Assembly: GCA_029891385.1 (NCBI GenBank)
Contig: CM057224.1
Location: 28,351,005-28,415,004, forward strand
Length of the DNA stretch: 64,000 nt
Source: Erythroxylum novogranatense
Taxonomy: Eukaryota; Streptophyta; Magnoliopsida; Malpighiales; Erythroxylaceae
Direction of reading: 5' to 3'
Below the pieces are notes generated by a model, which had not been told where the DNA came from, searched no databases, and saw only the letters and a program-made list of their open reading frames with translations. Positions 7,681 to 39,678 of this stretch are shown here, one piece after another (the first letter of the stretch is position 1; each line of letters opens with the position of its first letter). The position numbers were made by a program, and so were the translations under genes.

Positions 7681-7718
7681 ACCACACTACTTACAGGCGG
7701 CTGCAGCTTCCTCCCCGG

Positions 7719-9186: not shown

Positions 9187-9197
9187 GCTCGATACCA
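9187..9197 (-). other. Primer-binding site, copy 1
   Basis: On the - strand this reads TGGTATCGAGC, four bases from the LTR end. It is the plant initiator-Met tRNA site TGGTATCAGAGC with CAG shortened to CG. Both internal copies show the same shortened form, matching the CAG-to-CG discrepancy seen elsewhere in the window. Confidence 0.85.
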
Positions 9198-9201
9198 CGG
9201 A

Positions 9202-12200
9202 TGTCGACCCACCCGAGAGACGGATCCCAACTGTTGGATCCAAGACCCAACCGCATATAACTTACCATTTACCCTCTTACTTTGATACCACAATTTGTCG
9301 GGATCCCGCTCCGGAGCCCGACTTTCATAGTCCCAAACTTGTACTTATAGACTTGCAGGATTCTTAACCAACCATTCACTTACTTTTATTCAAACATTTT
9401 CATTTTAACTCCAATTGTTACATATTTTAATTGATAACAAGACATATGTCTTAGGAATCTAATGGTCCAAACCCCACCCCATTTGGAGGTCGGACGAAGG
9501 AGTTATGACCCGACAAACTCAACGTGTTCATGTTTTGACTCCTATCAAACATGTTTTGGCGCAAATGTCATAACTTTCACTATAGGTGTCGGAATGACTT
9601 CGTTCTTGGACCATTTTAAACTAGACATCTAGGTATACAACTCTCAAGAAGACCACAAAACCAAATTCGGCCTCTAACAAGCCCAAAACACTTGACTAAG
9701 GATCCTAGTCGATTGAATAGATGCTAGTCATTCGACGGTATTTTGCTGGTTGTAGTCATCGAAACATTTCCAGTCATTTGGAACTTACGAGAAATATTCT
9801 CCGCCCTCCGAGTAGTCGACTGGAACACTTTCCAGTCGACTGAAACCCTCCTAGTCGACTGGAACACCTTCCAATGATTGAAATCTCTCTTCTCAAGACC
9901 ACTTGGAATCATCATCTTCAAGACTCATAACTTTTATCCCTAGCTCCAATTGGTGCATACTATACCTCTATGGAAAGGTAAGAAGATGAACTACAAATCT
10001 TATGAAGGATGCTAAAACTAACTCCATCATTTAATAAGGTAAAATTCACTCAAAGGTCACTGCTCCATTAATACCTATGTAACAAAGCTGTGGCTAAATG
10101 AACAATAACTGGTTGTGTTCTAATCCTCATAACTTCTTAACCCTAGATCCAAATGAGACAAACAATATACCCTTGGAAAGCTCTAATCCTCTACTACAAA
10201 CTTCATGAAGACTCATTTATCTAAATCAAACCCGAAGAGGGTCAATGTCAAGGCGATGTCCGTCAAATTTTAAGAAAATTTGACAGCACCTCCCTATTTT
10301 ATTCCTAACCCAAAATCTTCAATCTAGACCATAACCTGCACATAAATTCTACATTCAAGGCAGCAACACACTCTTAGTTTTCTAGACATTCTCAATTCAT
10401 ACCCAAACCATCACCATGATTCAATTTCCATACACACAAGTATAAATTTCTCAAATACATTCATGATCTAATACTTTTACTTTCAAATTCATTCATTCAT
10501 TCATCATCATTCAATCATAACATGTTCATACAATGCTTTAGTGGGCATTTCAAGCCCAATTACATAAAGCTTCAAAATACATCATTTCCTTAAAATGCAA
10601 CTAAAGCATTGATGTTACAAAATGATTTCAAATCCCAAAATAACAAAAGAACTGCTTGGAGTAAAATGCCTTATGCTCGCTCCTCGGGTTCTGCTCATTT
10701 CACGAAATTTGTGGGGTGAGCTAATGCTCCGTGGGTAACACATTTACGCTTATATAACAAGCACATCCTTAATTCATGTATTTATCAATTTTCCAAGGAA
10801 ATCACATCACATGCATAACTCAAACATTTATACATTCATAACAATTTCAATCATTCCATCATTCACGTATCTTATACAATTCATGCATATTCATGGCAAA
10901 CACAACAATGGCTCGGTAAGTCCAATCATGGCAACCACATAAGTTCATCAAATGACCTAATGTGGGCAAATTCTTGAGGAGTCCGATATCGATCATCCTA
11001 TGCCTCAATCGGGCAAATGGCGAAGGCTTTTCATGTCGACGCACGTGATTTCGGTTCTTGGGACATTACCTTACCCATACAAAGCATAATTCATTTCATA
11101 ACAATAAAATTGGATTGTTCTTATCCAAGTTATTGTTTTCATTAAAATCATTCTTTCATGCATCATTCATGCAAAATTCATAATTCTCATTATATTCATT
11201 TCATTTAGCTCTAGGCTAATTCACCCATCATCCTAGAATTTACATTTTCTAACATTATGATCACATAGCATAATATTTACAATCATTCAACAACCACAAC
11301 ATCAATCCTTCATATCATCCATTTACAATCATCCAACAACCACAACATCAATCTTTCATATCATCCGTTATGGTTTTCAACAACCATACTAACATTCAAC
11401 ACAATCACAATATCAACAACACGAGCAATAAACATCATAAATATCATTCATCCATAACTAACACAAGCATTAACAACCATTATTAATGTCATAATTAAAT
11501 TTACATTAAATGCTCATAAATATAAAAGTAAAGGTGTAACCCACCTTAAATCCTTGATAATTCCTTGAATAGCTTGCTATAATTCTTGTTCCTCTTCTCT
11601 TCCTCTTCTCTTTCATTAAAACCAACAACATTCCCAAATCAACATAGGATTTAGAAATTGAAAACCTAAATGCTTAAATCATGAAATTGGCAAGAGGATA
11701 ACTAAACCCACTTGGTTCTTAACTCTTCTAACCAAAACCCATCTAAAACTTAATATTAAACCAAAGACTTACCTTAAATCTTCCTCCAACCAAAGGATTT
11801 CTTGAATCAAAATGAAGCTCTAGTCTTCCTCTATCTTCTTTCTCCTTGAACTTTCTTCAAAATCTTAAAGAAAATCAAGCCTTAACATTTTCTTCTTTTC
11901 TCCCCCTTCTCCTCCACGCATTGACTTCTCCTCTCCTTTCTCTCTATTTCACGATTCTTCACTCTTCCTCTCATCCAACTCATTTAATTCACCTCTTTAT
12001 ACCTCCTCTTATTCTCCTTGGGCTCACTCACTTAAGCCCATTGGTTCCCTCTTCTTCCTCCTTCCTTCATCTTCTTCTTCCTTCATTTTCCTACACTCAA
12101 GCCCACAAAGCCTAAGCCCATCTTCACTTCATTTCTTCTTCTACTTCATTTCTTACTTAGGCCCATCTATCTCCTTCTTCCTTTCTTTCATCCTACAACT

Positions 12201-12491
12201 TCCTCCTTAACAAACTCAAGCCCAATAACTTAAGCCTCTAAATTTTCTTTAAGCCCATCTCATTTAATTCACCTAACTAACTTGTTTCATTTGGACCCAA
12301 AGCCCAATTAACACATAAATCTCACCTAACTCATTTAAGTCCAACTAACATATCTAACTTCATTAATTCTTCAACTAACTTATTAATGCTATCATATATT
12401 AATTAATGTCACCTTAATTAATGCTAACATAATTTGCTTAATTAGACTAATCATGCTTAATTAAATAAAAAAAAAAATTTTGGGGCTAACA
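9202..12491 (-). repeat. LTR 2 of the dimeric gypsy element (central, shared)
   Basis: This 3290-bp LTR runs TGTCGACC...GGGGCTAACA. It serves as 5' LTR for the 4316-9201 internal region and as 3' LTR for the 12492-17302 region. No TSD lies at either of its edges, which argues for a tandem structure rather than two separate insertions. Confidence 0.92.
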
Positions 12492-12505
12492 TTTCTCCCC
12501 CCCTT
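12492..12505 (-). promoter_or_regulatory. Polypurine tract, copy 2
   Basis: On the - strand CTTAAGGGGGGGAGAAA abuts LTR 2. The G run is longer than in copy 1. Confidence 0.85.
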
Positions 12506-12529
12506 AAGAAATTTCGTCCTCGAAATTCT

Positions 12530-15500
12530 TACCTGGTTGATTGAAGAGGTGTGGGTACTGCTCCTGCATTGCATCCAAAGGTTCCCACGTCGCCTCTTCA
12601 ATTGCATGATTCTTCCACAGGACTTTGACTAGCTTGATTGTCTTGTTCACGAGGATCTTATCTCATATCCGAATTGCCACAGCATTTCTTCATAATCGAG
12701 ATCATCACTCAATTGAACTTCGAGGTCCGAATGATGTGAGAAGGATCGATCTGTACCTTCTCAAAGATCGACACATGGAACACATCATGGATCTGTGATA
12801 ATTCGGCAAATGCCAATCTATAGGCCAACGGACCAATCCTCTCCATAACTTCATAAGGACCCACATAACGAGGACTTAACTTCCTTTCTTACCAAATCTC
12901 ATAACTCCTTCCATGGAGACGCCTTAAGGAACACCTTATCTCCCATCGCATATTCCATTTCCTTCCTGTTGGCATCCGCATAACTCTTCATTCTCGTCTC
13001 GGGCTGCCTTAAGCCTCTCGCTTAATCAAGTCAACTTTTTCAACCGTCATCCGGACCAACTCGTCCCACTAGCTTCCTCTCACCCTCTTCATCCCAAAGA
13101 TATGGGAGTCCCGTGATCTTCGCCATACAAGGCTTCATAAGGAGCCATCAGATGCTCGAATGGTACGAATTGTTGTAAGCAAATTCACCAACGGCAAGTG
13201 ATCATCCCATGCCCTTTGAAGTCCATTACATGCTCTAAGCATCCTTCTAGAGTCTGAATTGTCCTCTCGAGATCGCCATCCGTCTGAGGATGAAACGCCA
13301 GATCAAATTCAACTTAGTTCCTAATGCTTCTCAGAGACTTCCCAAAATCTGGATGTGAACCTAGATCCTCGCTTGATACTATGGAATCCGAACTCCATGC
13401 AATCTTACCACTTCATCAATATACTTTCGGCTAAAATTTGCGTGAATAATGCTCTACCGATTGCTAGAAAGTGGGATGACTTCGTCAACCGATCCACTAT
13501 TACCCAAATGGCATCATGCTTCTTCGGTCTTAGGCAAACCCATCGAAAATCCATTGTAATCCTCCGCCATTTCCATTCAGAATGGACAATGGCTGCAACA
13601 TGCTGAAGGTGCACGGTGTTCAAATTTGACTTGTCGACACACTAGACATCTACTCACATAATCTGCTACATCTCTCTTCATGCCTTTCCACCGTAAATGT
13701 TCCTTCAAATCTCTGACATTACGGTGTCTTGCTGGTGCATGGAATAAGGCGATTGTGTGCCTCATCCATGATCTCATCCTTAATCGCTTTATCATTCTAA
13801 TGCATAACTTTGCTTCCGACCATCATTAATCCATCATCCCTTACTTGCACCAATCGATCGCTTACCATTCTCAGATTTCATCTCTCAACTTACTCAATTC
13901 CACATCTTGCTCCTGCGCAACTCCTTAACCTTTTCCCTAAGGATAGGTCTCACTCTAAATTGTGCAATAACACCCTGATTCATCCTGCTGCAAACTAATC
14001 TTCAACTTAGCCATCTGCTCCAACAGAGGCAAGTAGATCTACTGAACATGAGCCATCGACGACTTTACGCTCAAAGCATCTCGCCACTACATTTGCTTTT
14101 CCCGGTGGTACTCAATCATTAAATCATAGTCCTTCAAAGCTCCAACCATCTTCTCGCCTCAGATTCACTCTTTCGACTCATGATGTACTTCAGACTTTAT
14201 GATCAAGAAAACTCGTCGAACCCCATACAAATAGTGTTCCAAATCTTCGAGCAAAGATCATCGCAGCTAACTCCAAGTCATGAGTCGGATAATTCAACTC
14301 ATACCGCTTCAACTGTCTTGAAGCATAAGCAATTACCCTATCATCCTGCATCAAGACACATCCTAGACCCTTCCTCAAGCATCATCAGAACTCGAGATAG
14401 CCTCGATCTCCACTGGGTAAAACTAATATCGAGCACTTGTCAATTTGTCCTCGAGTTCCTCGAAACTCCTCGACAATCATCATTCCGCATAAACTTCGAT
14501 TCTTTCTCAACAATCGGTCATCGGAGCAATATGATAGAAAACCCTCTACAAATCTTACAGAATACCGCCAGCCTAAGAAACTTCTCACTTCCTTCATCTG
14601 TTTTGGCTCCAGCCAATTGACTACGACTTCCACTTTTTCGATCGATATGAATTCCCTACTTGGAAATCACATGTCCAAGGAATACTACTTCACGAAGCCA
14701 AAACTCGCACTTCATCAATTTGGCATACAATTTCTTCTCTCTCCTCTGCAAGACTATCCCGAGATGTTGTTCATGCTCTCCTCCATCCTTTGAATAGACC
14801 GAATGTCATCAATGAACACAATGACAAACCGATCCAAGAAATCATTTAACACCCTATTCATCGATCCATGAAGGCAAATGTGAGCATTGGTCAATCCGAA
14901 AGGCATGACTCAATTCATAATGCCCAGACGGGTCCCGAAAAGTCGTCTTCCTAACATCGACTCCACGATCCGGAGTTGATGATATCCCGATCTTAGGTCA
15001 ATCTTGAAAAGACCCTTGCTCCTCGCAATCGATCAAATAAATCATCTATCCTCGCAGAGGATACTTGTTCAATCGTCATCTTATTCAACTTCACGAATCT
15101 ATGCACATCCTCCATGTGCCATCTTTCTTTAACAAACAGACCGGAGCTCCCGGGGTGAAGAACTCGGCCGATGAACTGCTTTCTCCAATAACTCCTGCAA
15201 TTGCTCCTTAAGTTCTCTCAACTCAATCGGAGCCATCCCGTAAGGAGGTATCGAGATCGGCGCGATTAGGAATCAAGTCAATTTCAACTCAATGTCCTCA
15301 CCGCGAATCCCGCAACTCCTCCGGAATACATCCGGGAACTCCTCACCACAATGTAATCCTCCAATCTTCCTACATTGACCTCTGATCCACTATATGCGCC
15401 AAGAAGGCCTCACACCTCGCTCATCATAATCGTCGACCACCATAGCCAAATAATCCTCAGACCGCAGCTTCTGTCCCCCTTGAAGACTACCTTCCGATCA

Positions 15501-15830
15501 TCTCCCGGATCAAATTCAACTTCCTTTAGACGCAATCCGGCCTTCAGCCTTGTACCTCTCCATGACATCCATCCCCAAGATGACATCCAACCTCAAGGTC
15601 TAGCGGTAGTAGGTCCACTACCACCTAGCACCTCGATACTAAGCTCACAATTTTATAGATCAGCTTATCACTACCTTACTCCCTAAAGGAGTACTAACAA
15701 CCAAAGATATTATCCAAAATCTCGGGACACACAAGCATAAATTCATGCTTGCAGATATAAATGAGTGTGTAGACCCAGATCAATCAATACATAAACAGTG
15801 CATCAAATAGCATAGCCATACCCACATTAC
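12530..15830 (-). pseudogene. Pol region (protease, RT, RNase H, integrase, chromodomain), copy 2
   Basis: This is co-linear with 4350-7680 but more damaged. Recognisable pieces are integrase HHCC-region residues (RDLKEHLRWKGMKRDVADYV near 13577-13795), MDFRWVCLRPKKHDAIWVIVDRL near 13405-13623, and RNase H with [20 protein letters not shown] near 14190-14378. RT appears only as short blocks. Differences from copy 1 cluster at CAG and CTG, typically reduced to CG. Confidence 0.85.
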
Positions 15831-15839
15831 TTCAAGGCC

Positions 15840-17065
15840 GCAGCTTCCTCCCCGGTCATGGCAAAGACTCTCGGCAGCTCGACCTCGCCTCTAGGCCTTC
15901 CTCGCCGATAAGTCTTCCTTGTAGCTCTGAACTACCGACTTCTTGGATCGCCTAGATGCCACTTCTCTGCTCTTCTTGGGGCTCGAGATCAACCCCTTCT
16001 GCTTGCACCTGTGGACAATCCTTGATTCACTGTGCCCTTCCGACCACAACCAAAACATGCGCCTATCTTCATCGACACTCCCCCAGTGAAATCTACCACA
16101 GTGATCACACCGAGGATTGCCTCTGCTGACCATCCTGGCTTGCCACACTAGAAGCTTGCAGACCGACACGTACTCTAAACTGCTTATTCTTTGTGGGGCC
16201 ATCTTGCCCCACTTCACTGTATGACCCGCCTTAGTGCTCTTTGCAAATACAGGGAACTCATGCTTTTCTTTGAAAACGCTCTCTGTTCTTCCTCTTCTTG
16301 GTTACCTCAAACGATATTTTCTAACTTCACGAAGAATGCAAAGATCCACCACATTCTTGATAATTCCCGAAATTGTGGATGACTACTTTCTCCCGAATCC
16401 TAGGTGTAGTCCACCCTCAAACTTTCTGCACTTGTCCACTTGATTGCCACGATGTTGGCTGCATATCGTGACAACCGAGTGAACTTCACTCATACTCTGC
16501 TACACTCGGCTCCCTCTCGGGTCAAATTCAGAATTCTCTTACTTTCTCCCGAACATACACCATGGAAAAGTACTTCCCACGAAAGCTTCTAAGAACTCCT
16601 CCATGTCAAGATCGAGGGTTCTTCCCGATCACAAGACCGATTCCCACCAAGGTCGGTGATCCCCCGCAACAAGCTTCTCATAATCAACTTTCTCTTCTTG
16701 AGCATCTCATCCGCTTCAGACCCTCTCGGTCCTCTTCACCATCTTGGCTTCCTGGATTAGTGGTCCCATTGAAGTCGACCGCCCATACTTCCGGAGCTTA
16801 TCATATCGACCTCCTCTCCACTGGAGCCGGCATTGAGCTGCCTTCCTTGCCCATGGCATAGGTAAACGCTTTGGGCAAAAGCTTGGAAGAACTGGGGTCC
16901 ATCGGATTTACTTGAGGAGGAGGCGGGAGGCGCCATGTTGCACACGGGTGCATCGAGTCGATCATGTGGATAGTCCTCGCATCCTCGTGGAACGTCTTTA
17001 TTCATCCGCATTCCGCTGTGAGCTAGGTCGAGCCGAGCTCCTCGAGTTCTCCTTCGAGGCGACAT
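15840..17065 (-). pseudogene. Gag, copy 2
   Basis: The start is at the ATG 17063-17065. The N-terminus reads MSPRRRTRGARLDLAHSGMR. The zinc-knuckle region near 16060-16130 begins CDHCGRFH and then shifts frame. The gag core is split over several frames. It is the same gene as 7719-8963. Confidence 0.85.
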
Positions 17066-17287
17066 TACTCCTTCAAGTTTAAAATTCGGTGAAAATCTTT
17101 AGTTTACATGAAACAAATTCAATTCATGTAAATCAATTCAAAACAATTCAATGCATTCATTTGAAAACAACATTGCATTGCATGCAATTAAAACAATGCA
17201 CATAAGTCATGTAATTCATGTAGAAAATGCATGATGACTTGACCTTTAAACATTCCACTAGGTTCCTAGAAACCGTAAACCCGTTTC

Positions 17288-17298
17288 GCTCGATACCA
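17288..17298 (-). other. Primer-binding site, copy 2
   Basis: On the - strand it reads TGGTATCGAGC just outside LTR 3, the same shortened initiator-Met site as in copy 1. Confidence 0.85.
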
Positions 17299-17302
17299 CA
17301 GA

Positions 17303-20300
17303 TGTCGGGACCCGACCAGAGAGACGGATCCCAACTGTTGGATCCAAGACCCAACCGCATATAACTTACCATTTACCTCTTACTTTGATACCACAATTTG
17401 TCGGGATCCCGCTCCCTGAGCCCGACTTTCATAGTCCCAAACTTGTACTTATAGACTTGCAGGATTCTTAACCAACCATTCACTTACTTTTATTCAAACA
17501 TTTTCATTTTAACTCCAATTGTTACATATTTTAATTGATAACAAGACATATGTCTTAGGAATCTAATGGTCCAAACCCCACCCCATTTGGAGGTCGGACG
17601 AAGGAGTTATGACCCAACAAACTCAACGTGTTCATGTTTTGACTCCTATCAAACATGTTTTGGCGCAAATGTCATAACTTTCACTATAGGTGTCGGAATG
17701 ACTTCGTTCTTGGACCATTTTAAACTAGACATCTAGGTCTACAACTCTCAAGAAGACCACAAAACCAAATTCGGCCTCTAACAAGCCCAAAACACTTGAC
17801 TAAGGATCCTAGTCGACTGGAATAGATGCTAGTCGATCGACGGTATTTTGTTGTTGTAGTCGATCGAAACATTTCCAATCGATCGAACTTACGAAATATT
17901 CTCCGCCCTCCGAGTAGTCGACTGGAACACTTTCCAGTCGACTGAACCCTCCTAGTCGACTGGAACACCTTCCAATGATCGAATCCTCTTCTCAAGACCA
18001 CTTGGAATCATCATCTTCAAGACTCATAACTTTTATCCCTAGCTCCAATTGGTGCATACTATACCTCTATGGAAAGGTAAGAAGATGAACTACAAATCTT
18101 ATGAAGGATGCTAAAACTAACTCCATCATTTAATAAGGTAAAATTCACTCAAAGGTCACTGCTCCATTAATACCTATGTAACAGTGCTATGGCTAAATGA
18201 ACAATAACTGGTTGTGTTCTAATCCTCATAACTTCTTAACCCTAGATCCAAATGAGACAAACAATATACCCTTGAAAGCTCTAATCCTCTACTACAAACT
18301 TCATGAAGACTCATTTATCTAAATCAAACCCGAAGAGGGTCAATGTCGGGCGATGTCCGTCAAATTTTAAGAAAATTTGACAGCACCTCCCTATTTTATT
18401 CCTAACCCAAAATCTTCAATCTAGACCATAACCTGCACATAAATTCTACATTCAAGGGCAGCAACACACTCTTAGTTTTCTAGACATTCTCAATTCATAC
18501 CCAAACCATCACCATGATTCAATTTCCATACACACAAGTATAAATTTCTCAAATACATTCATGATCTAATACTTTTACTTTCAAATTCATTCATTCATTC
18601 ATCATCATTCAATCATAACATGTTCATACAATGCTTTAGTGGGCATTTCAAGCCCAATTACATAAAAGCTTCAAAATACATCATTTCCTTAAAATGCAAC
18701 TAAAGCATTGATGTTACAAAAATGATTTCAAATCCCAAAATAACAAAAGAACCGCTGGAGTAAAATGCCTTATGCTCGCTCCTCGGTTCCCGCCATTTCC
18801 TGAAATTTGTGGGGTGAGCTAATGTCTGTAGGTAACACATTTACGCTTATATAACAAGCACATCCTTAATTCATGTATTTATCAATTTTCCAAGGAAATC
18901 ACATCACATGCATAACTCAAACATTTATACATTCATAACAATTTCAATCATTCCATCATTCACGATCTTATACAATTCATGCATATTCATGGCAAACACA
19001 ACAATGGCTCGGTAAGTCCAATCATGGCAACCACATAAGTTCATCAAATGACCTAATGTGGGCAAATTCTTGAGGAGTCCGATATCGGATCATCCTATGC
19101 CTCAATCGGGCGTAGGCGAAGGCTTTTCATGTCGACGCACGTGATTTCGCGGTTCTTGGGACATTACCTTACCCATACAAAGCATAATTCATTTCATAAC
19201 AATAAAATTGGATTGTTCTTATCCAAGTTATTGTTTTCATTAAAATCATTCTTTTCATGCATCATTCATGCAAAATTCATAATTCTCATTATATTCATTT
19301 CATTTAGCTCTCTAGCTAATTCACCCATCATCCTAGAATTTACATTTTCTAACATTATGATCACATAGCATAATATTTACAATCATTCAACAACCACAAC
19401 ATCAATCCTTCATATCATCCATTTACAATCATCCAACAACCACAACATCAATCTTTCATATCATCCGTTATGGTTTTCAACAACCATACTAACATTCAAC
19501 ACAATCGTCAATATCAACAACACGAGCAATAAACATCATAAATATCATTCATCCATAACTAACACAAGCATTAACAACCATTATTAATGTCATAATTAAA
19601 TTTACATTAAATGCTCATAAATATAAAAGTAAAGGTGTAACCCACCTTAAATCCTTGATAATTCCTTGAATAGCTTGCTATAATTCTTGTTCCTCTTCTC
19701 TTCCTCTTCTCTCTTCATTAAAAACCAACAACATTCCCAAATCAACATAGGATTTAGAAATTGAAAAACCTAAATGCTTAAATCATGAAATTGGCAAGAG
19801 GATAACTAAACCCACTTGGTTCTTAACTCTTCTAACCAAAAACCCATCTAAAAACTTAATATTAAACCAAAGACTTACCTTAAATCTTCCTCCAACCAAA
19901 GGATTTCTTGAATCAAAATGAAGCTCTAGTCTTCCTCTATCTTCTTTCTCCTTGAACTTTCTTCAAAATCTTAAAGAAAATCAAGCCTTAACATTTTTCT
20001 TCTTTTTCTCCCCCCCTTCTCCTCCACGCACGACTTCTCCCTCTCCTTTCTCTCTATTTCACGATTCTTCACTCTTCCTCTCATCCAACTCATTTAATTC
20101 ACCTCTTTATACCTCCTCTTATTCTCACTTGGGCTCACTCACTTAAGCCCATTGGTTCCCTCTTCTTCCTCCTTCCTTCATCTTCTTCTTCCTTCATTTT
20201 CCTACACTCAAGCCCACAAAGCCTAAGCCCATCTTCACTTCATTTCTTCTTCTACTTCATTTCTTACTTAGGCCCATCTATCTCCTTCTTCCTTTCTTTC

Positions 20301-20602
20301 ATCCTACAACTTCCTCCTTAACAAACTCAAGCCCAATAACTTAAGCCTCTAAATTTTCTTTAAGCCCATCTCATTTAATTCACCTAACTAACTTGTTTCA
20401 TTTGGACCCAAAGCCCAATTAACACATAAATCTCACCTAACTCATTTAAGTCCAACTAACATATCTAACTTCATTAATTCTTCAACTAACTTATTAATGC
20501 TATCATATATTAATTAATGTCACCTTAATTAATGCTAACATAATTTGCTTAATTAGACTAATCATGCTTAATTAAATAAAAAAAAAAATTTTGGGGCTAA
20601 CA
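17303..20602 (-). repeat. LTR 3 of the dimeric gypsy element (5' LTR)
   Basis: This 3300-bp LTR ends in GGGGCTAACA and is followed by the TSD CGGGA at 20603-20607. It holds the AGTCGACT cluster at about 17805-17985. Family A LTR sequence resumes directly beyond the TSD. Confidence 0.93.
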
Positions 20603-23920: not shown

Positions 23921-24402
23921 CTCTATATTGCAATCCTTGGAGTTCAATTCTTAATTCGACCTCCAAGGGTAAAGCTAAAAGATGAAGCGGATCACCTGAA
24001 CAAAGGCCTAAGTAAACGCCTGAAACAATCTTGGATCCCAGGTAGGCACTTATTTTGACGGAATAGGCGACTCCTACATTTGAGACCGAGATGGCCAACT
24101 ACTATGCTCTACAAATCCTCAGTATTTTCTGGGGCTATTGACTCATCAGTACTCTCCTCTCTTGGTGGAGATTCAGGCGCAACAGACCCTTGCAAAAATC
24201 CTCGTGTCCTTCTACGAGGTGACATATTACTCCTTCAATGAAAACACTAATGATTAGTTTACATTTCATTTTAATCTTAGTTCCTACATATATGCATGAT
24301 ATGCATATCACTTAAGGAAATTAATCAATTCACAATGCAAAAAATAATCACATAACACAATAATTCATCCTGATATGCATTCTAAGCCTAGGAAAAGCCT
24401 AA
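23921..24402 (-). mobile_element. Leader and gag start of an old Tekay-like element
   Basis: The ATG at 24223-24225 (-) opens MSPRRRTRGFLQG, clearly related to the gag N-terminus of the 1009-20602 element. Leader sequence with the shared TTAGTTTACAT motif follows towards 24402. Removing the 24403-33166 insertion joins this to 33172-33188 and to the LTR at 33189. The rest of the gene is not recognisable. Confidence 0.6.
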
Positions 24403-26137
24403 TGTAACATCCCGTTACCGGCGTGACGGGTATGTTGGTAATTTGGGATTGGATTTGAATTGAGTACAGGCAAAGTGGCATTGCACATGCATTATAGTTT
24501 TAATAGTTATTGGTAAATGATTATTGATTTTACAAATATATATATATATGTACATACATGTATGACAATTCTTGACTTGATTGTGTAGATCGGAAATTTG
24601 GTTCTAATCGCATGTATGAGAATTTGATTGTGCAAATTGGAAATTGAGAAAGTGTATAAATCAAGTTGTGAATATGGAATTGGAATGAAATGGAAGTCGA
24701 GGAATGGAAATTTGAATATGAGTATAGGATTGGTCGCTTCTAATTTTGTAAATTTATGGGAATTTTTCCAAAATTTTAGAGTAATAGATCCTAACCAAAA
24801 ATTGGCTTGGTGATGATTAATTGGATTCCGAGTCCGAGATTGGTTGGCAATCGACATGGAACAATTGGGATCATAATTTTTGGATTTATTAGTTATGGTT
24901 ATTGCGAAGTTGGGAGAAAACTAAAATAAGAATCGGACTAATAGACTCTAAGATTTGGACTTGTGGCAACTAAATTGCCAAACAAGCCTTTAAAGCTTAC
25001 ACATATATATAAGTTTAACCGTTTGTTTTCATCATCGACGGTCGTGGGTGAGCATTTTGCGATTCGGAGTTCTTGGAAGATTTTTAAAGGATTAAAGTTT
25101 GAATCAAGTAAGTTTTTATGTGTTTATTCCTTGCATCGTTTCATTTGATCATTGATTTGAGTATGAAATGTTTAGAAATTTGGAAAGTGTCGATGATAGG
25201 GTTTTCGTTGGTTTTGATTTGGGTTTGTGATGAAAAATGGTTTAAATGATGGATTGAGGTTAGAAATAAATTGGGTTTAAGGCCTAAAACTGATTGAGAG
25301 TGTTTAGAATGGATTTAGGGTGGATTTCTATCAGAGGATCTGAGAAATTTCTGGGTTTCGGATGAGTTTCTGGGTTCGCATGTCGCGACGTGTGAAGAAC
25401 ACGCCGCGGCGAGCCCCCTTAGGGTGCACGTCGTGATTAATATTAAATATTTAATTAGATGGTCGCGACGAAGCAGGTTTGTCCTCACGTCGCGATTTAA
25501 CAACATCGACGTCATGACGAGCAGCGATTTCACGCCATGATTTAAAGATCGGACGTCACTGATTTAAGGAGACCGATTTCAGAAGTAGATTATTGAGGTT
25601 TTGAATTTGAGAATTTTGGGATTCAATTTGGATTAGTTATGGATCAAAATGGCATTTGAGAGAATAGGAATTGCAATTTAGAAGAAATGAAATTAAGTGA
25701 TTATAAGATGATTGTTACAAGTAATGAATTTAAGGTGATTTCAAATGAATTGGTTCTAAATGATTAATTGGAATTTGGAGACTAAGAATATTGAATTGAT
25801 AAGGATGGGAATTCGGAATGCAATTAGATGATTATCGGAGTTGAGTGGTAAATGAATAGTGATTATGATTTTAATTGGAATGTGACTATAGAGTATGGAA
25901 TTGAATTATGGTATTGAGAACTGTTATGAATTAGAGTGAGAGTGATCAAATTGAGAAATTCAGGAATAGGATTGAGAATGTCATAACATGTATAGTATTT
26001 ATTGCATTTGCTAAACATGCATGATTGATTATTGAAATGGGTATAATTAGTGATGTGCGATTATTTGATTGTTATAGAGGCACCATGGAGCAATTCCACG
26101 AATATCTTTGGGACTTCCAGTCAGAGTTCTAAGTGCG

Positions 26138-26849
26138 GTGAGTAACCTAGTTGGTTTCTCAACCTTTATGTGTTTAAGATTTTGCAATTATGCCATGTGG
26201 AGATAATGGGGTTTATGTGTGTTTGATTTGATTGATTTCGACCATGGGTGTCCAAATATTGGAAATGTGATATCAAAGTGCTATTATGTAAATGATTATG
26301 ATGCATCAATGCAATAAATTGAAAATGATATGATTGATATACGGACCAAAGGTCCAAGGAATAGAAATGGCATGAAATGTAAATGGAAATTGGAACATAT
26401 GCATTCATGCATATTGGTATGATCGAGATAAAGCCGGTTGTGGCCTAATGCCACCGATCGTAAGCATATCACGCCTAACGATATGAGAGCTTTCACCAAC
26501 GCACGAGACCTCGGTCCAACGATTCGAGCCTCAGCTCAATGTATCAGGGCTTCAAGCCCAACGAAATTTCAGAGCCACTGGCTCACCGTTATTGAGCTCA
26601 GGTGCACGGTCACAACAACGTAATGAAAATGGAAAGAGTCTCATGTGCATTGCATATATGGAATGATTACATGTGAATTGTGTGAAAGGCATATCGCCTT
26701 ATAAAGGTGAATTTGACTGCATGTGATTTCTTGAATGTGATAATATGCGATATTATGTGATTGTCTGTATATGCATGAGTTGGGTGAACCATCGATGATG
26801 GTTTCTCACTGAGTTCGCAAACTCACCCAACATTGCATCTATTTTTCAG
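26138..26849 (+). other. Putative LTR intron, 5' LTR copy
   Basis: The donor reads GCG|GTGAGTAAC where the 3' LTR has GCAG|GTGAGTAAC, and the acceptor is CTATTTTTCAG|GAAATG. It contains the degraded hairpin array 26437-26616. Confidence 0.45.
26437..26616 (+). other. Mini-hairpin array, 5' LTR copy (partly degraded)
   Basis: GGGCT-TCA-AGCCC (26547-26559) and GAGCC-ACT-GGCTC (26572-26584) are perfect. Other units have lost bases at CAG sites relative to 32303-32491. The right outer arm CGGTCACAAC (26607-26616) is intact; the left arm reads GTTGTGGCC. Confidence 0.65.
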
Positions 26850-27298
26850 GAAATGAAGAGTACCCCGTTAGACACACGGGAGTATGTCTACCGCTAGCAA
26901 GACAAAGTTTTCGGGTCGGGATCAGTGTCGTCCACGTCTGCATTAGTGTAGTGATTTGATTCAGTAGGCCCCATTGATTATGTGTAAATGTATTGTATAG
27001 TGTACCGTAAATGTTCGAAATATCAAGGGCCCGGTTTGGGAATTTGTGTTTTATTGATAAATGTAAATGAGTGCCCTTTTGAATAATATTGTTCTACCGA
27101 AAATGATTTGAATTGAAGTGGGCACAAATTGTTTACCGTTTTCTGTATACTCAACTGCTTTTGAAAGAAAAGATAAATGTTATAACGAGTTTTAAAAAGG
27201 TAGTGATTGTTCTAGTACGCCACCCTCGCGGGTCACGGGCTCAGATATCATCGTAGATGTCGGGTTCGGGTCTCGTCGGGAGTGGGGTGCTACATTTG

Positions 27299-27310
27299 TG
27301 GTATCAGAGC
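27299..27310 (+). other. Primer-binding site of the LARD
   Basis: TGGTATCAGAGC lies four bases after the 5' LTR. It is the standard plant initiator-Met tRNA complement, here intact. Confidence 0.93.
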
Positions 27311-30257
27311 CCAAAAGTACAATCTTACATGGGCATTCTGAACAAAATGTGTCAAAGTGCATGCATTCAAGTCATGTCTCGGCAGACAGTGACGACTGAT
27401 CCCCAGTATAGCATATGAGTCTCATCCATGAGCCTGTACTAGTGATTTAAGTGGTTAGAAATAGTAAAGAAAAGATGATATGTAGAATGTGATAAATGGA
27501 AGTTGTGGAAATCAAGGAATAAGAACAGGTATATGGTACGATATGATAATTGGAGATTTAGTGTATTATGCGATGGGCGATTATGAAATCGACATTAGAG
27601 TTATGATTGGAAGTCTATGACTTAGAGTCAGAATGTGTTAAGTGAGAAAGCATGAATGAATGAACGTTTGTGATATGGATTTGAGTGTAATTGTATAAAA
27701 CGAAATAATGAAAAGATGTGAGAAAATAATATTGGTAGATGAAAAAGTTGAACAGTTGTTAAGATTCAATGGATTTGCCTATGCGAATGCACACCTGATC
27801 ATGGGAATACACCATGGATGTGAATGATATCGGAATTGATTGGTGAGTTAGTGGATAACCGCCAATCATAATTCTTATAGTTAAAAATTCATGTGAGTAG
27901 AGTAAGAAATGAAAGTCCTTATAGTGATTACTTGGAAATGAATTGAGATTGTGATCCTGATATTGGTATGGTAAAATCCTCATGATTGAGGACATGTGTA
28001 AAAAGGAAAAATGCGGTCAAAAATCAAATGAGATTGAGGTATCCTAACGTAAGTGACTAAGTTGTGAGTTGCTTTACGTCTATTTCTTGATGAGATGATG
28101 TGAAAAGGATGTCCCGTATGAATTGTGGCATAATTGATCTTCATGAGATATTAAGAGCTATAGTTAACATTGATGATTTAAGGCATTGAAAATGACTGAT
28201 AAGAAATGTGATGACTGATGATGATTAGGAAGTGAAAGAAAAGTTGCCCCTGATTTGGGTCAAGTTGATCAGATAATTTAATTGGAAGAATTATTGATTC
28301 AAGGATAAATTTGAATTGAATTAAAAGTCCATTATTAGGGAGTCCCAAGAATATGTTATTGAGAGGATGTGTGTTATGTTAATGTAAAGGCTTCAATGTA
28401 TAATAGGATTATTGAACAAGAAAGAGATATTAGTCGTGATTATGCGGAGGATATCGGTTCAGTATATATTCGTGTGAATATGTTCGTGAAGCTTAAAGTG
28501 GATCGATGAATGTAAAATGTGTGAGAATCTAGTGTAAGAGAATATGTGTCCAATAGGTTAAGATGAGATTGAGAGAATGGTTAGAACATCGTTCCTCGTT
28601 GGAGAAGTATGATAATTAAAGAGTTTTGCAAATTAATCATAGGTAATCAAGAGTGAAATGTTTAGATTGAGTTTAAAGTGGATAGTAATCGTGATCATCG
28701 ATGATCGATATAATACATTTGAAAAGTGAAGACGATAAATTGGCACAATTGAGGAAATTGTATAGCATGTAAGTTTCATAAAAGTGAATTTGACCTTGAT
28801 TGAATAATTAGTGGATGAATTTTATTCAACATGGTATTGGGAGATTAAAGGCAAATAGAGGTATTGATAAATGTGAAATTGTAAAGATTAAAATGTGATC
28901 TATTGAAATAATGTAAAGAGATTCTATATGTATGGAGATCGAGACAAGCTTATGGGCTGCATTGGTATTTGATGACTTGAAAATTTATTATATTGGACAT
29001 TGTATTGATAGTGTTGTGAAAGTTTAGAGGTTCTATTCGTATGAAATTGTTACGGATGTATATGCGTTTGTAAAGAAATAATGATTAAGATATTTTAGTA
29101 AATGGGGAAAAGGATTATGCGTTTGAGTGTTTGATTTTTCGTTAATAACGCAAATAATTAGATGATAAGGTTATGAAACGGATGTAAGATTGAGTGTTAA
29201 CTATCAAGTTGGTAAAGTACAAAAAGAGAACGTACTGTGCAGGTATGTGTTGAAAGCATGGCAAAATCCGAATTGAGAATTTTGAATAGGGGACCTTATC
29301 GAGAAATTTGCGAATAGCTTTAGCTATAAAGAAAATGAGTATTGTGACTGGACTAAGAAGTATGAGTAAAACTCATTAAAGGAACTGTTAGTGAAAATTC
29401 AAGGCATAATCGAAGTTATAGATTATAGTATGAGTGTATTAGAAGAGTAATAGAAAGTAGAATGTGACATTGAGAAATTATGAGTATGTTTGACCTACAG
29501 AATTAACTGCTGGTGATAACTGTGAAACTGATACGTGGGGAGTCCATAGGATTGTGAGATTGATGTATAGATCAGAGTGATTGTGAGAATATCAATTGTT
29601 ATATTGATGATATCACTTGAATAGTGTATAAAAGGTCAAGAGGAATTGTTCGTCCGGATAATAAAGTGAACAGGACCTAATATAGTCAAAGGCCCTGAGT
29701 GATTTGAGTTAGAATTGATAAGTGATTTGGATCGGTAATAATAGTTAAGAAATCCAAATTGATGAAAATGAGTCAAATTGATGATTATCGAAGTTTTAAA
29801 ACCTTATGAGATTTGAAATTGGCATTGGAGAGATGCAATATGATAAGCGATACATGAAATGTCTCTAAATGTGTCACCTCGGCCAAACTATGCATTGACC
29901 GAGATAAAAGGTAAATGGGAAATTAAATTAGTTATTAGTGACTTCCATATGATTGTGGTGTGAATAGATTTGTAAGGCAAATTAATATAAACCGAAAAGA
30001 TGAATTGGATTTGTAAAGTGCTATATGGATAGAAATAGGAATACCGATATGATCGGAGGTGTGTTATTGGTATTGAAAATGACGAATTGTGAGTAATCAT
30101 AAAGAAATTGTTAAAACAAGTGTAGATTGTGAAAAAAGAGATAAGTAATTGTGTTAATTTCAGAAATTGGCGGACATTGGTTTTATGTTGATATAGTGAC
30201 AAAAGTTCCCCTATTTTTCTGATAAATCGTATATGAAATTTCGAGACGAAATTTTAT

Positions 30258-30271
30258 AAGGAGGGGAGAAT
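30258..30271 (+). promoter_or_regulatory. Polypurine tract of the LARD
   Basis: AAGGAGGGGAGAAT directly abuts the 3' LTR start TGTAACATCC. It is preceded by TTTCGAGACGAAATTTTAT. Confidence 0.9.
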
Positions 30272-31995
30272 TGTAACATCCCGTTACCGACGTGACGGGT
30301 ATGTTGGTAATTTGGGATTGGATTTGAATTGAGTACAGGCAAAGTGGCATTGCACATGCATTATAGTTTTAATAGTTATTGGTAAATGATTATTGATTTT
30401 ACAAATATATATATATATATGTACATACATGTATGACAATTCTTGACTTGATTGTGTAGATCGGAAATTTGGTTCTAATCGTACAGATGAGAATTTGGAT
30501 TGTGCAAATTGGAAATTGAGAAAGTGTATAAATCAAGTTGTGAATATGGAATTGGAATGAAATGGAAGTCGAGGAATGGAAATTTGAATATGAGTATAGG
30601 ATTGGTCGCTTCCTAATTTTGTAAATTTATGGAATTTTTCCGAATTTTAGAGTAATAGATCCGCATCAAAAATTGGCTTGGTGACTGATTAATTGGATTT
30701 CGGTCCTAGATTGGTTGGCAATCGACATGGAACAATTGGGATCATAATTTCTGGATTTATTAGTTATGGTTATCATGCGAAGTTGGGAGAAAACTAAAAT
30801 AAGAATCGGACTGATAGACTTAAGATTTGGACTTGTGGCAACTAAATTGCCAAACAAGCCTTTAAAGCTTACATATATATAAGTTTAACCGCTTGTTTTC
30901 ATCATCGACGGTCGTGGGTGAGCATTTTGCGATTCAAGTTCTTGGAAGATTTTGAAGGATTAAAGTTTGAATCAAGTAAGTTTTATGTGTTTATGCCTTG
31001 CATCGTTTCATTTGATCATTGATTTGAGTATGAAATGTTTAGAAATTTGGAAAGTGTCGATGATAGGGTTTTCGTTGGTTTTGATTTGGGTTTGTGATGA
31101 AAATGGTTTAAATGATGGATTGAGGTTAGAAATAAATTGGGTTTAAGGCCTAAAACTGATTGAGAGTGTTTAGAATGGATTTAGGTGGATTTCATCGAGG
31201 ATCCGAGAAATTTCGGGTTTGGATGAGTTTACGGGTTCAGACGTCATGACGCGTGAAGAACACGCCGCCGAGCCCCTTAGGGTGCACGTCATTTAATATT
31301 AAATATTTAATTAGATGCGCCATGACGAAGCGGGTTGTCCGCACGTCATGATTTAACAAAGATCGTGCGTCGCGACAAGCAATGATTTCACGCCGCGATT
31401 TAAGGATCGAACGTCATGACGAAGACCGATTTCAGAAGTAGATTATTGAGGTTTTGAATTTGAGAATTTTGGGATTCAATTTGGATTAGTTATGGATCAA
31501 AATGGCATTTGAGAGAATAGGAATTGCAATTTAGAAGAAATGAAATTAAGTGATTATAAGATGATTGTTACAAGTAATGAATTTAAGGCTGATTTCAAAT
31601 GAATTGGTTCCTAAATGATTAATTGGAATTTGGAGACTAAGAATATTGAATTGATAAGGATGGGAATTCGGAATGCAATTAGATGATTATCGGAGTTGAG
31701 TGGTAAATGAATAGTGATTGTGATTTTAACTGGAATGTGACTATAGAGTATGGAATTGAATTATGGTATTGAGAACTGTTATGAATTAGAGTGAGAGTGA
31801 TCAAATTGAGAAATTCAGGAATAGGATTGAGAATGTCATAACATGTATAGTATTTATTGCATTTGCTAAACATGCATGATTGATTATTGAAATGGGTATA
31901 ATTAGTGATGTGCGATTATTTGATTGTTATAGAGGCACCGATGGAGCAATTCCACGAATATGCTGGGACTTCCAGGCTGTAGCCCGGAAGTGCAG

Positions 31996-32724
31996 GTGAG
32001 TAACCTAGTTGGTTTCTCAACCTTTATGTGTTTAAGATTTTGCAATTATGCCATGTGGAGATAATGGGGGTTTATGTGTGTTTGATTTTGATTGATTTCG
32101 GACCATGGGTGTCCGAAATATTGGAAATGTGATATTGAAGTGCTATTATGTGTAAATGATTATGATGCATCAATGCAATAAATTGAAAATGATATGATTG
32201 ACATACCGGACCAAAGGTCCGAAGGAATAGGAAATGGCATGAAATGTAAATGGAAATTGGAACATATGCATTCATGCATATTGGTATGATCAGATAAAGG
32301 CAGTTGTGACCGAAGCAGCCAACGTATCAGGGCATATCACGCCCAACGTATATGAGAGCTTTCAGCTCAACGCACAGGACCTCAGGTCCAACGTATTCAG
32401 AGCCTCAGGCTCAATGTATCAGGGCTTCAAGCCCAACGAAATTTCAGAGCCACTGGCTCACCGTTATTGAGCTCAGGCGCACGGTCACAACAACGTAATG
32501 AAAATGAAAAGGGTCTCATGTGCATTGCATATATGGAATGATTACATGTGAATTGTGTGAAAGGCATATCGCCTTATAAAGGTGAATTTGACTGCATGTG
32601 ATTTCTTGAATGTGATAATATGCGATATTATGTGATTGTGCAGATATGCATGAGTTGGGTGAACCATCGATGATGGTTTCTCACTGAGTTCGCAAACTCA
32701 TCCAACATTGCATCTATTTTTCAG
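31996..32724 (+). other. Putative LTR intron, 3' LTR copy
   Basis: CAG|GTGAGTAAC opens and CTATTTTTCAG|GAAATG closes a 729-nt segment. Both match plant splice consensus closely and are kept in the other family A copies. The hairpin array sits inside. Confidence 0.5.
32303..32491 (+). other. Mini-hairpin array, best preserved copy
   Basis: An outer stem GTTGTGACCG (32303-32312) / CGGTCACAAC (32482-32491) encloses GGGC-ATATCAC-GCCC (32330-32344) and five 13-nt hairpins. These are GAGCT-TTC-AGCTC (32356-32368), GGACC-TCA-GGTCC (32377-32389), GAGCC-TCA-GGCTC (32400-32412), GGGCT-TCA-AGCCC (32422-32434) and GAGCC-ACT-GGCTC (32447-32459). Spacers are 8-12 nt and resemble AACGTATNCA. The function is unknown. 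Confidence 0.85.
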
Positions 32725-33188
32725 GAAATGAAGAGTACCCCGTTAGACACACGGGAGTATGTCTACCGCTAGCAAGACAAAGTTTTGGTCGGGATCGATC
32801 GCCCACGCTGCATTAGTGTAGTGATTTGATTCAAGAGGCCCCATTGATTATGTGTAAATGTATTGTATAGTGTGACCGTAAATGTTCGTAAATATCAAGG
32901 GCCCATTTGGGAATTTGTGTTTTATTGATAAATGTAAATGAGTGCCCTTTTGAATAATATTGTTCTACTGAAAATGATTTCGAATTGAAGTGGGCACAAA
33001 TTGTTTACCGTTTTCCGTATACTCAACTGCTTTTGAAAGAAAAGATAAATGTTATAACGAGTTTTAAAAAGGTAGTGATTGTTCTAGTATGCCACCCTCG
33101 CGGGTCACGGGCTCAGATACCACCGTAGATGTCGGGTTTGGGTCTCGTCGGGAGTGGGGTGCTACACCTAATCTATGATACTAAACAA

Positions 33189-36975: not shown

Positions 36976-37542
36976 TGACTAGTCTAACTAGTATTTATAT
37001 TCTTATTAAAATTAATTATAAAGATTATTAAATAGAGAATTTTGGAACTTATATAGATAGTGGAGCGTGTTCATACTTATGTAAATCAAGTTGTTTTCCT
37101 AAACAATATCATAAACCTTTAAAACCTATAATAAGGTTAGATATTTCTAATGATCATATACATTTATCTACCGGTATACAACAACCTCAAATCCTTTTAG
37201 GGTCATTTTTAATTAAATTTCCTCCCGTTTATTTTTATGATACTTACACAGATACTCTCCTACGAAATAATTTGCTGCAACTATTTCATAAAATCTTATT
37301 TGATATTTTAAAACAACAAATCCATTTCAAAACTTCTTGTGCTCACTGGATAATTGTCAACTTTCTTAAACATCCTTATTGTAGGACCTCGACCTCTCGG
37401 GCCTCGCGTCCACAGGACCTTGGCCTCTCGGGCCTCGCGTCCTCCAAAAGGCCTCGGCCTCACTCCCACCCACCCGCTTGCAGATATTGTCCGCTTTGGG
37501 CCTCGGCCTCTAGGGCCTCGCACCCTCACGGTTTTACTTTTC

Positions 37543-37638
37543 CACAGGACTTCCCAGGAGGTCACCCATCTTGGTACTGCTCTGGCCCTAACATGTTTAA
37601 CTTCGGAGTTCTGATGAGATCCGGTGCGTTAGGGTATG
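37543..37638 (-). ncRNA. 5S rRNA-derived segment in TRIM LTR (left)
   Basis: On the - strand it contains GCACCGGATC, CATCAGAACTCCGAAGTTAA and GATGGGTGACCTCCTGGGAAG. These match the 3' three quarters of plant 5S rRNA including the internal A-box and C-box regions. It is not a functional 5S gene, because the 5' end differs and it sits in an LTR. Confidence 0.85.
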
Positions 37639-37901
37639 GAAAACGAGTCTGCAAAGGAGAGGTTTCCACATCCTTATAAGGCATGCTTCGTTCTCCTCTC
37701 CAGTCGACATGGGATACCCCTAAGTATCCACCCCCCTCGGGAGGCCCAGCATTCACGCTGGCATATCGCTCAGGTCCTGTCTCTGATACCAATCTGTAGG
37801 ACCTCGACCTCTCGGGCCTCGCGCCCACCTACCTGCTTGCAAATATTGTTCGCTTTGAGCCTCGGTCTCTAGGACCTCGCACCCTCATGATTTTACTTTT
37901 T

Positions 37902-37998
37902 CACAGGACTTCCCAGGAGGTCACCCATCCTGGTACTGCTCTGGCCCTAGCACGTTTAACTTCGAAGTTCTGATGGGATCCGGTGCGTTAGGGCATGG
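37902..37998 (-). ncRNA. 5S rRNA-derived segment in TRIM LTR (right)
   Basis: It is as the left copy but closer to 5S consensus (GGATCCCATCAGAACTTCGA, and GGATGGGTGACCTCCTGGG). It may retain Pol III internal promoter activity. Confidence 0.87.
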
Positions 37999-38763
37999 AA
38001 AACACGGCTGCAAGGAAGAGGTTTCCACATCCTTATAAGGCATGCTTCGTTCTCCTCTCCAGTCGATATGGGATACCCCTAAGTATCCACCCCCCCTCGG
38101 TCTTTCCTCATTGGGGAAATTAGATATTTAAAGAGTTATGATAATCAATCAAGGGTATAAGGAGTTTATTATACTATTGAAGAGTAGAGTGTCTCAATTG
38201 TGTTTAGATTGGATAAGTGTGTAAAGAGTTATGCATGTTAGAAATTCAGATGGTGAAGAGAGAGAAATAAGTGCAAACCCTCTTATCTTTTGTTTTATCC
38301 TAAAGTTTCTTTTGCTTATATCTTCGTCATCCGACCTTCGATTGACCTGGTTCTTGAGGCATCAGATTCGTCTAATATTTAATTTCATTTATTTGTGAAA
38401 TTGGAAATTTTTATAGCTGAAATTGACGTGGATCGATTATGTCAAAGTGAGAGGACCGGAAAATGATTTTTTTGACTCGTATTTTATTTATAATTGGACC
38501 TATAGAGGTCCGAATTGAGTGATTTTTATGTCTACGGGTTTCTAATTTATAAAGGAAAATTTGGTGACGGGAAATTGTGCAATAGTGTCGGGAATGTCAT
38601 GAACATGCATTGTACACGTTTTAATTGTTCTATGTGCATTGTTTGCTACTTTTGAATATACATTTGGTAATGTGTCACTATTTTGAATGTTATAGAGGCA
38701 CAGTTGGAATGTCATCCCACGGACGTTGCTGAGACTTCCCCACATTAGCTCGGAAGCTATTTG

Positions 38764-39678
38764 GTGAGTAACCTAGATGGTTTCTCGATTATTGATTGTT
38801 TATAATTTTACACTATAACACTGTGGAGAATAATGGAGGGCTTTGCATTTGTTTATGACTGATTCCGAGCTGAAGGTGCCCGATGTACTAGGAGAATTTG
38901 ACATAGAAGTGTTATTTGTCTGAGAATTTGAGACCTTCGTGTTTCCAATGTGATAGATCGTGATTGTGATTATATTGTGAATAGTTGTGAAATAATTGTT
39001 TGACTATAATAATTTGGGTTCGAGTGTGATGTGATAAATTGTGATACGGAAATTGGTCAGATACGCTTCGCTTATTTGTAACATGTGGATAATTGTGCTG
39101 CATTTACTGTTAAATTGGGATATATGCATTTCATACATGAATGCATGACCAGTTAATGAGAGTTGTGACTGGAGTAGCCACCGAGAGCTATAAGCTCAAC
39201 GTTTATATTGGGCCTCGAGCCCCACAGTGATTCAGAGTCACAGGCTCACCGATTAATGCACCCATATTGGGACAGTTCAGAGCCTCAAGCTCACCGATTA
39301 ATGCACCCATATTGGGACAGTTTCAGAGCCTCTGACTCAACAATTAATGTGCCCTTATTAGGACAGTTTAGGCGCTCAGTCACAACACCGAAATAAAATA
39401 GAAATGTGTCATATGCACATGTCATATGTATCTGATTTTAGTCTCTTTGATTGAGCGAAAGGCTAACTGCCTTATGCTTCTGTGGTATTTCTGAATGTGA
39501 ATTTTGGATGTTTATGAATTCAATTGGTTATGTATGTCTGTGCAATGTGATAATTAAATATGCAACAATGTGAATATTTGTTATATGGAACGTTGTGTTG
39601 CATGAATTGAGTGAACCATCGATGATAGTTTCTCACTGAGTTCGCAAAACTCACCCAAAATTTGCAATTATTTTTCAG
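38764..39678 (+). other. Putative LTR intron, diverged copy
   Basis: Donor TTG|GTGAGTAAC and acceptor AATTATTTTTCAG are retained although the inside has diverged and grown to about 915 nt. Confidence 0.45.
39162..39386 (+). other. Mini-hairpin array, diverged copy
   Basis: The outer stem GTTGTGACTG (39162-39171) / CAGTCACAAC (39377-39386) differs from the 32303 copy by a paired C-to-T and G-to-A change. Units are GAGCT-ATA-AGCTC (39185-39197), GAGTC-ACA-GGCTC with a G-T wobble (39235-39247), and weaker GAGCC-TCA-AGCTC (39280-39292) and GAGCC-TCT-GACTC (39326-39338). CCCATATTGGG hairpins are added in a local duplication. Confidence 0.7.

Follow-up and report, generated by a model that had tools for sequence, protein, structure and literature searches.

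A family-wide structured element, consisting of an array of GC-rich mini-hairpins, is present in the long terminal repeats (LTRs) of a large plant retrotransposon family with long LTRs, four copies of which were analysed in a 64,000-nt stretch of the Erythroxylum novogranatense genome (assembly GCA_029891385.1, contig CM057224.1, positions 28,351,005 to 28,415,004 of the forward strand; the whole of this stretch is called the window, and its first letter is position 1). The array recurs in dozens of copies within this genome and would for this reason probably be a working signal in the RNA of the element. The reading favoured here, to which a probability of about 0.4 is attached, is that the array would act in cis as a structured module of unspliced element RNA, used for packaging or export.

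Organization of the hairpin array

In its general plan, a closing stem of 10 bp encloses six to eight short GC-rich hairpins, with stems mostly of 4-5 bp. For array B, located in the 3' LTR of the element of interest, an earlier sequence-only reading had described five 13-nt units, each with a 5-bp stem and a 3-nt loop, separated by spacers of 8-12 nt, together with a sixth GGGC/GCCC hairpin and a 10-bp outer stem around the whole. All of these were found (Table 1), the spacers measuring 8, 10, 9 and 12 nt. In the same manner, the GAGCT/AGCTC, GAGCC/GGCTC and AGGC/GCCT stems attributed to array copy C were located in that copy. Array copy A in the 5' LTR had been overlooked.

Tandem Repeats Finder returned periods of 45 and 22 nt over the array, and the repeat unit is therefore described as a hairpin, AACG or ACCG, and an AT-rich spacer, with a period of about 22/45 nt. 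In array copy D, the second hairpin of the period-45 repeat differs from that of B. Degenerate period-45 repeats in both B and D, and arrays that differ among B, C and D, are the properties of a variable tandem-repeat zone. Among the window copies, C has an outer stem of only 8 bp, and in D three of the five 13-nt units are imperfect, through either a mismatch or a shorter stem.

Just upstream of the array, at 32255-32279, lies a block with 88% three-way identity that contains the perfect inverted repeat ATATGCAT-TC-ATGCATAT. Further GC-rich mini-hairpins were seen by eye outside the closing stem in the LTR of array B (32096-32120, 32205-32220 and 32557-32573), with GGACC/GGTGTCC, CGGACC/GGTCCG and AAGGC/GCCTT stems.

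Hairpin excess and predicted folding

Array B contains five perfect hairpins with a 5-bp stem and a 3-nt loop, for a shuffle mean of 0.12, and none of 5000 dinucleotide shuffles reaches this number. The other window copies contain three (C, 2/5000 shuffles), two (A, 49/5000) and two (D, 70/5000). When 13-mers ending at A[AC]CG were considered, 10 of 25 were perfectly paired within the four arrays versus 2 of 196 elsewhere in the window; for this count and for that of hairpins, the region of array A started 5 nt inside its outer arm. Elsewhere, at 54281-54545, AT-rich tandem repeats include a cluster of AT hairpins that satisfies the 5-bp/3-nt rule without GC-rich stems.

The predicted RNA folds of the window copies gave z-scores of -5.86 (B), -5.30 (D), -3.58 (C) and -2.66 (A), and those of five genome copies (L004, L054, L035, L064 and L067), hand-picked as clean-looking as were the reference copies, gave -7.2, -6.3, -6.3, -4.3 and -5.9 respectively. 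Three LTR regions were scanned in 200-nt windows, and the lowest + strand z-score always falls on the array (-3.98 for B, -3.53 for C and -3.05 for D); neighbouring sequence is structured as well (+ strand, 32072-32271, z -3.43). No Rfam family matched near the array, the best hit having an E-value of 0.45 and 14.2 bits versus a gathering score of 65, and the only Rfam matches elsewhere in the window were to 5S ribosomal RNA (rRNA).

Array copies across the genome

Searches of the genome were done with the B, C and D types and with the A copy, and the best 40 candidate places of each search were scored out of 3989, 2827, 6146 and 4152 first-look candidates respectively, so that all copy counts given here are lower bounds. 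Aligned copies amount to 28 for B, 30 for C, 30 for D and 31 for A-like arrays, the window copies being counted among B, C and D. The remaining nine A-like places were already within the B set, and the 31 include one A-like locus (L106) that has no clear array.

A perfect Watson-Crick outer stem was found in 25 of the 28 B copies, the hairpins of which are perfect in most copies (Table 1). In the 30 C copies, perfect hairpins numbered 19 for c1, 13 for c2, 14 for c3, 29 for c4, 18 for c5, 27 for c6 and 17 for c7; in the 30 D copies they numbered 22 for d1, 26 for d2, 19 for d3, 22 each for d3b, d4 and d4b, and 18 for d5, an eighth D hairpin (d5b) being uncounted since it was not found in the D reference used. 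By our reading, the B, C and D types have six, seven and eight hairpins, in a partly different order. As an example, the GGGC-ATATCAC-GCCC hairpin comes first in B and last in C. The stem of the GAGCT unit is common to all three types with a loop that differs, being TTC in 28/28 B, TTA in 30/30 C and ATA in 24/30 D copies. All three array types thus keep their closing arms and the ability to form hairpins, whereas the hairpins vary in order, number and loops, and the spacers vary as well.

At one genomic place (G000:C6:98802807-98809334), a B-like and an A-like array (L013 and L103) stand about 5.9 kb apart on one strand, as would the two LTRs of one element, one being clean and the other patchy.

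Pairing between units

The proposal that the arms differ between units while pairing is kept was borne out when 13 chosen units of B, C and D were compared. Standard pairs occupy 60 of 65 cells (92.3%, versus 82.2% in shuffles), and both sides differ from the commonest pair in 10 cells versus 3.5 in shuffles, values that were reached by 0/500 shuffles and by 0/5000 in a repeat test. These units were picked by eye from an A[AC]CG-anchored list; this first selection omitted the rows of A and three decayed rows of C, and no count included the CCCA/TGGG hairpins of D. Once six poorer rows were added (A units and decayed C units), 77 of 91 cells were paired and 14 were changed on both sides (0/5000 shuffles). 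For the B units alone, 9/5000 shuffles were as good. These numbers overstate the independence of the units, which are related by duplication and across copies.

Array breakage and probable assembly noise

Between the LTRs carrying arrays A and B, gap events concentrate at CHG/CG sites, 25 of the 37 gaps in A and 15 of the 28 gaps in B being at or adjoining such sites (backgrounds 19% and 18%). Copy A was for this reason set aside as a natural test of decay. The A-like copies are a patchwork of variants at CAG sites, and all four state combinations were found for 12 of 15 hairpin pairs in the 31 A-like loci versus 6 of 15 in the 28 B loci. Among the C hairpins, c4 is the sole one without a CHG/CG site inside or overlapping it and is perfect in 29/30 copies, the others being perfect in 13-27; c3, perfect in 14/30, has no such site inside, its first base being part of a CAG. 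Much of the breakage seen in copies A and C is a probable consequence of consensus error at methylated cytosines in the assembly; real mutation or recombination may also be its source. Two cautions apply to any use of these copies: indels at CHG/CG sites in this assembly can make intact hairpins seem broken, and CpG transitions can mimic compensatory changes. A second hot spot of A-B LTR differences is a CpG-rich LTR patch at 31181-31481 with repeated near-palindromes, e.g. CGTCATGACG and CGTCGCGACG.

Position of the array in a probable intron

On the sense strand of the element, the array stands between a donor-like block and a block made of a three-way junction followed by an acceptor-like site. 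Three-way identity among B, C and D is 92% in the donor-like block GGTGAGTAACCTAGTTGGTTTCTC and up to 96% in the three-way-junction block just before TTTTTCAG; these two blocks are the most conserved ones, and both are outside the array. In 25-nt windows, identity is 8-20% in the array interior (window starts 32325-32375) and 64-80% in the closing arms. The donor-like block was found in 8/8 B, 26/30 C, 22/30 D and 10/12 A-like loci, and the exact junction core in 4/8, 21/30, 21/30 and 6/12 of them; an acceptor-like site follows the exact core in 4 B, 19 C, 17 D and 5 A-like loci (45/80 overall). Structure is predicted at both ends, as the donor-like site falls within a small hairpin (z -2.0, 7/200 shuffles as good) and the junction ahead of the acceptor-like site is structured (z -3.5). 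Being flanked by these conserved blocks and downstream of a TATA-like site, the array probably lies in a 729-nt intron (31996-32724) of an LTR-driven leader.

In the favoured explanation, the array would be transcribed in the 5' leader of the full-length element RNA and would be removed by splicing, so that its presence would mark unspliced RNA. Its multi-branched, repeat-built fold could then be recognised in cis by proteins supplied in trans, packaging or nuclear export of the RNA being the most likely purpose; such a supply would fit the element, since its own interior is without a long open reading frame (ORF). A more specific version, which is regarded as speculative and improbable as a whole, would see in the intron-borne multi-hairpin RNA an identity tag of the unspliced genome RNA, by which a parasitic element might be recognised by helper proteins, its interchangeable hairpin units being gained, lost and reshuffled around a fixed closing stem.

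Weighing of the RNA module and of other explanations

Several observations weigh against such an RNA module. A looser hairpin count (4-bp stems, G-T allowed, loops of 3-5 nt) is at chance level in all four window copies (633-1485/5000 shuffles as good), which confines the hairpin signal to perfect 5-bp stems with 3-nt loops; an excess over shuffled sequence is seen with the strict count (0/5000 for B) and not with the looser one. The minimum-free-energy fold of array B (-71.6 kcal/mol) pairs unit 3 with unit 5, and the fold with every local hairpin enforced is 1.2 kcal/mol worse (-70.4 kcal/mol); the units are thus able to pair with one another besides locally, and several local hairpins of D are missing from its predicted fold. 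Strong structure is also predicted on the minus strand, in windows at 31822-32171 (e.g. 31922-32121, z -4.20). Low identity is not peculiar to the array, since the LTR stretches 32205-32229 and 32555-32589 are conserved as poorly as its interior, and the outer stem is perfect in just 11/30 C and 15/30 D copies. No covariation signal was found within the window D units alone (1179/5000 shuffles as good). Independent covariation events are few, since all three array types share an origin and were taken from a single genome, and almost every stem-pair change within families (aligned B, C and D copies) is one-sided or leaves the bases unpaired, a pattern expected of dead copies.

To the same side belongs the compensatory change that had been proposed for the outer stem of D. 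Its T-A pair occurs in 1 of 30 D copies, that of the window, the other copies having C-G (24), C.A (4) or T.G (1), with CpG on both sides. Given these CpG sites, the T-A pair fits two deamination-type transitions with no selection required. Outer-stem compensation was consequently dropped as evidence of RNA structure, 24 of the 30 D copies being C-G and five having single-side changes. The G-T wobble that had been taken as kept pairing met a similar fate, as only 2/30 D copies have T.G at the fourth pair of unit d3 (25 C-G, 3 C.A). A hand count in the window copies gave about equal numbers of wobble-type pairs for the reading of either strand, which does not favour RNA over DNA, and wobbles were also dropped as evidence of an RNA strand. 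From the earlier description of a multi-branched RNA or cruciform conserved in the LTR family, the multi-hairpin element is retained family-wide, and the choice between RNA and cruciform receives no help from the wobbles.

The main rival to the RNA module is a neutral tandem-repeat zone, to which a somewhat lower probability is attached. Here, the LTR would have gained duplicates of a self-complementary unit, the stems of which would be kept or remade, without any RNA selection, by template switching in the course of DNA replication or reverse transcription. Consistent with such a process are the nil covariation of the D units and the period-45 repeats, which are present in both B and D with a second hairpin that is not the same in the two. 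RNA hairpins have been reported to arise and persist through template switching, a single mutation event of this kind being able to give perfect stems with changed letters (PMC8794818), and plant LTR elements are known to contain variable tandem repeats (PMC7004042). However, the closing arms, which are 190-225 nt apart, are among the better conserved parts, a fact that a local repeat process would not predict, and hairpins are kept at different positions in the three array types. Moreover, no two loops of the 13 units were reverse complements of each other in a hand check, so that the loop inversion by which template switching can be recognised is not seen.

Control of splicing is an improbable alternative, in which the fold in the intron-like stretch would join or hide the donor- and acceptor-like sites and so set the ratio of spliced to unspliced RNA. 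The conserved blocks with splice-like signals that flank the array, together with the predicted structure at both sites, are in agreement with it; on the other hand, the acceptor-like site follows the exact junction core in just 45 of the 80 loci. An element acting at the DNA level, i.e. a dyad array extruding cruciforms or binding a dimeric protein, for instance in chromatin or silencing, appears quite improbable. The fold computed with DNA parameters is likewise strong (z -6.0) and the wobble-type changes have no strand preference, but arms of 5 bp with 3-nt loops are short for cruciform extrusion, and the variation of the dyad letters between units along with the loose spacing (8-12 nt) does not suit one sequence-specific binding protein. 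An old insertion of a small inverted-repeat element, with the outer stem as its terminal repeats, would account for a variable interior between inverted outer arms of 8-10 bp and is very improbable, no target duplication being visible beside the arms and the flanks outside them aligning across B, C and D. A microRNA-type precursor was ruled out, the stems being too short.

Host element and surroundings

The element carrying array B (Table 1) is an LTR retrotransposon as judged by its paired TG...CA LTRs (termini TGTAAC...GCTACA), target duplication, primer site and polypurine tract. An alignment of its 5' and 3' LTRs, from which the first 9-10 bases of each were omitted, contains 80 substitutions and 66 gap events. 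The interior contains no ORF of at least 150 aa, and its longest stop-free piece is at most 121 aa. With long LTRs and a long interior of this noncoding kind, the element is like the large retrotransposon derivatives (LARDs). The 3' end ahead of the polypurine tract is presumably akin to that of the Tekay/Del lineage of Ty3/gypsy, the element itself being without a pol ORF.

Table 1. Positions of the array parts, array copies, surrounding signals and host element in the window
Feature	Position	Strand	Remarks
Outer stem 5' arm, array B, GTTGTGACCG	32303-32312	+	10-bp stem
Outer stem 3' arm, array B, CGGTCACAAC	32482-32491	+	10-bp stem
Hairpin u0, GGGC/GCCC, 4-bp stem, 7-nt loop	32330-32344	+	RNA fold; perfect in 26/28 B copies
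Hairpin u1, GAGCT/AGCTC	32356-32368	+	Perfect in 25/28 B copies
Hairpin u2, GGACC/GGTCC	32377-32389	+	Perfect in 24/28 B copies
Hairpin u3, GAGCC/GGCTC	32400-32412	+	Perfect in 24/28 B copies
Hairpin u4, GGGCT/AGCCC	32422-32434	+	Perfect in 25/28 B copies
Hairpin u5, GAGCC/GGCTC	32447-32459	+	Perfect in 27/28 B copies
Degenerate tandem repeat bearing the hairpins	32320-32464	+	Tandem Repeats Finder: period 45, plus a period-22 row
Array copy A, in 5' LTR	26437-26616	+	Units 1-3 broken
Array copy C, in LTR fragment	534-724	+	73% identical
Array copy D, in LTR 69% identical	39162-39386	+	Period-45 repeat at 39231-39369 (Tandem Repeats Finder)
Putative intron-like stretch, 729 nt	31996-32724	+	From the donor-like GTGAGT at 31996 through the acceptor-like TTTTTCAG, which ends at 32724
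Conserved three-way-junction fold preceding the acceptor-like site	32654-32706	+	Predicted fold
LTR element with array B	24403-33166	+	8.76 kb
5' LTR, contains array copy A	24403-27294	+	2892 bp
Interior without long ORFs	27295-30271	+	2977 bp (about 3 kb)
3' LTR, contains array B	30272-33166	+	2895 bp
Target duplication CCTAA	left 24398-24402, right 33167-33171	.	
Primer site TGGTATCAGAGC	27299-27310	+	In the element interior
Polypurine tract	near 30260-30271	+	Directly before the 3' LTR start at 30272
TATA-like site in 3' LTR	near 30874-30883	+	About 1.4 kb upstream of array B

Around this element, the LTR carrying array C is interrupted by a minus-strand insertion at 1006-20602 with an LTR-interior-LTR-interior-LTR organization, LTR-like copies being near 1006-4315, 9199-12500 and 17301-20602. 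Near the LTR with array D, two minus-strand 5S rRNA matches (37534-37647 and 37897-38002) are within a duplicated 286-bp stretch at 37456-38100. A match to the SH3_Tf2-1 domain was obtained in a different element of the 64-kb window. The one clear host gene in the window is an 843-aa ORF (61414-63945, minus strand) for a DOMON/cytochrome b561 protein of the At5g54830 type, whose closest named relatives belong for the most part to Malpighiales.

Comparison with known systems

Nothing useful matched the array in plasmid records and prokaryote genomes, nor in protein searches with two small ORFs over the array region, and among viral contigs there was a single 17-base match (L001), with no wider likeness by eye. 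To our knowledge, the recognition of RNA for export or packaging of plant LTR elements, above all of noncoding ones, is poorly understood. As a compact RNA module that exists in many copies and in three natural variants within a single genome, the array would lend itself to direct tests. Retroviruses have multi-stem RNA signals in introns or leaders, such as the Rev response element, the constitutive transport element and packaging signals. The array may be compared with these in working principle only, as a multi-branched RNA that would mark unspliced RNA, and it differs from them by the lack of an Rfam match and by a different, repeat-built architecture.

Among open-licence papers, no title or abstract was found to describe such an LTR hairpin array, and the words transposon and transposable are absent from the accessible part of a paper on plant structured RNAs (PMC12218528). 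For the LTR element Cer1, the requirement that unspliced RNA be exported has been discussed (PMC10309623). The RNA of the plant LTR element BARE falls into classes that include spliced and packaged ones, and a parasitic subfamily of BARE is packaged in trans; BARE differs in that its intron, of 104 nt, is at the end of gag, and the accessible text of the source mentions no LTR hairpin array (PMC3735527).

With the LARDs of plants, the element shares a noncoding interior and structured RNA (PMC7215508), the difference being that the structured zone lies here inside the LTR and is a hairpin array built of repeats. The variable tandem arrays in the 3' untranslated region of Ogre/Tat elements are comparable as short intra-element tandem repeats that vary between families (PMC7004042); the unit described here is in contrast a self-complementary hairpin, located in the LTR and enclosed by a conserved stem. 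Finally, the hairpins maintained by template switching were reported in RNA genes (PMC8794818), whereas those described here form an enclosed tandem array in an LTR.
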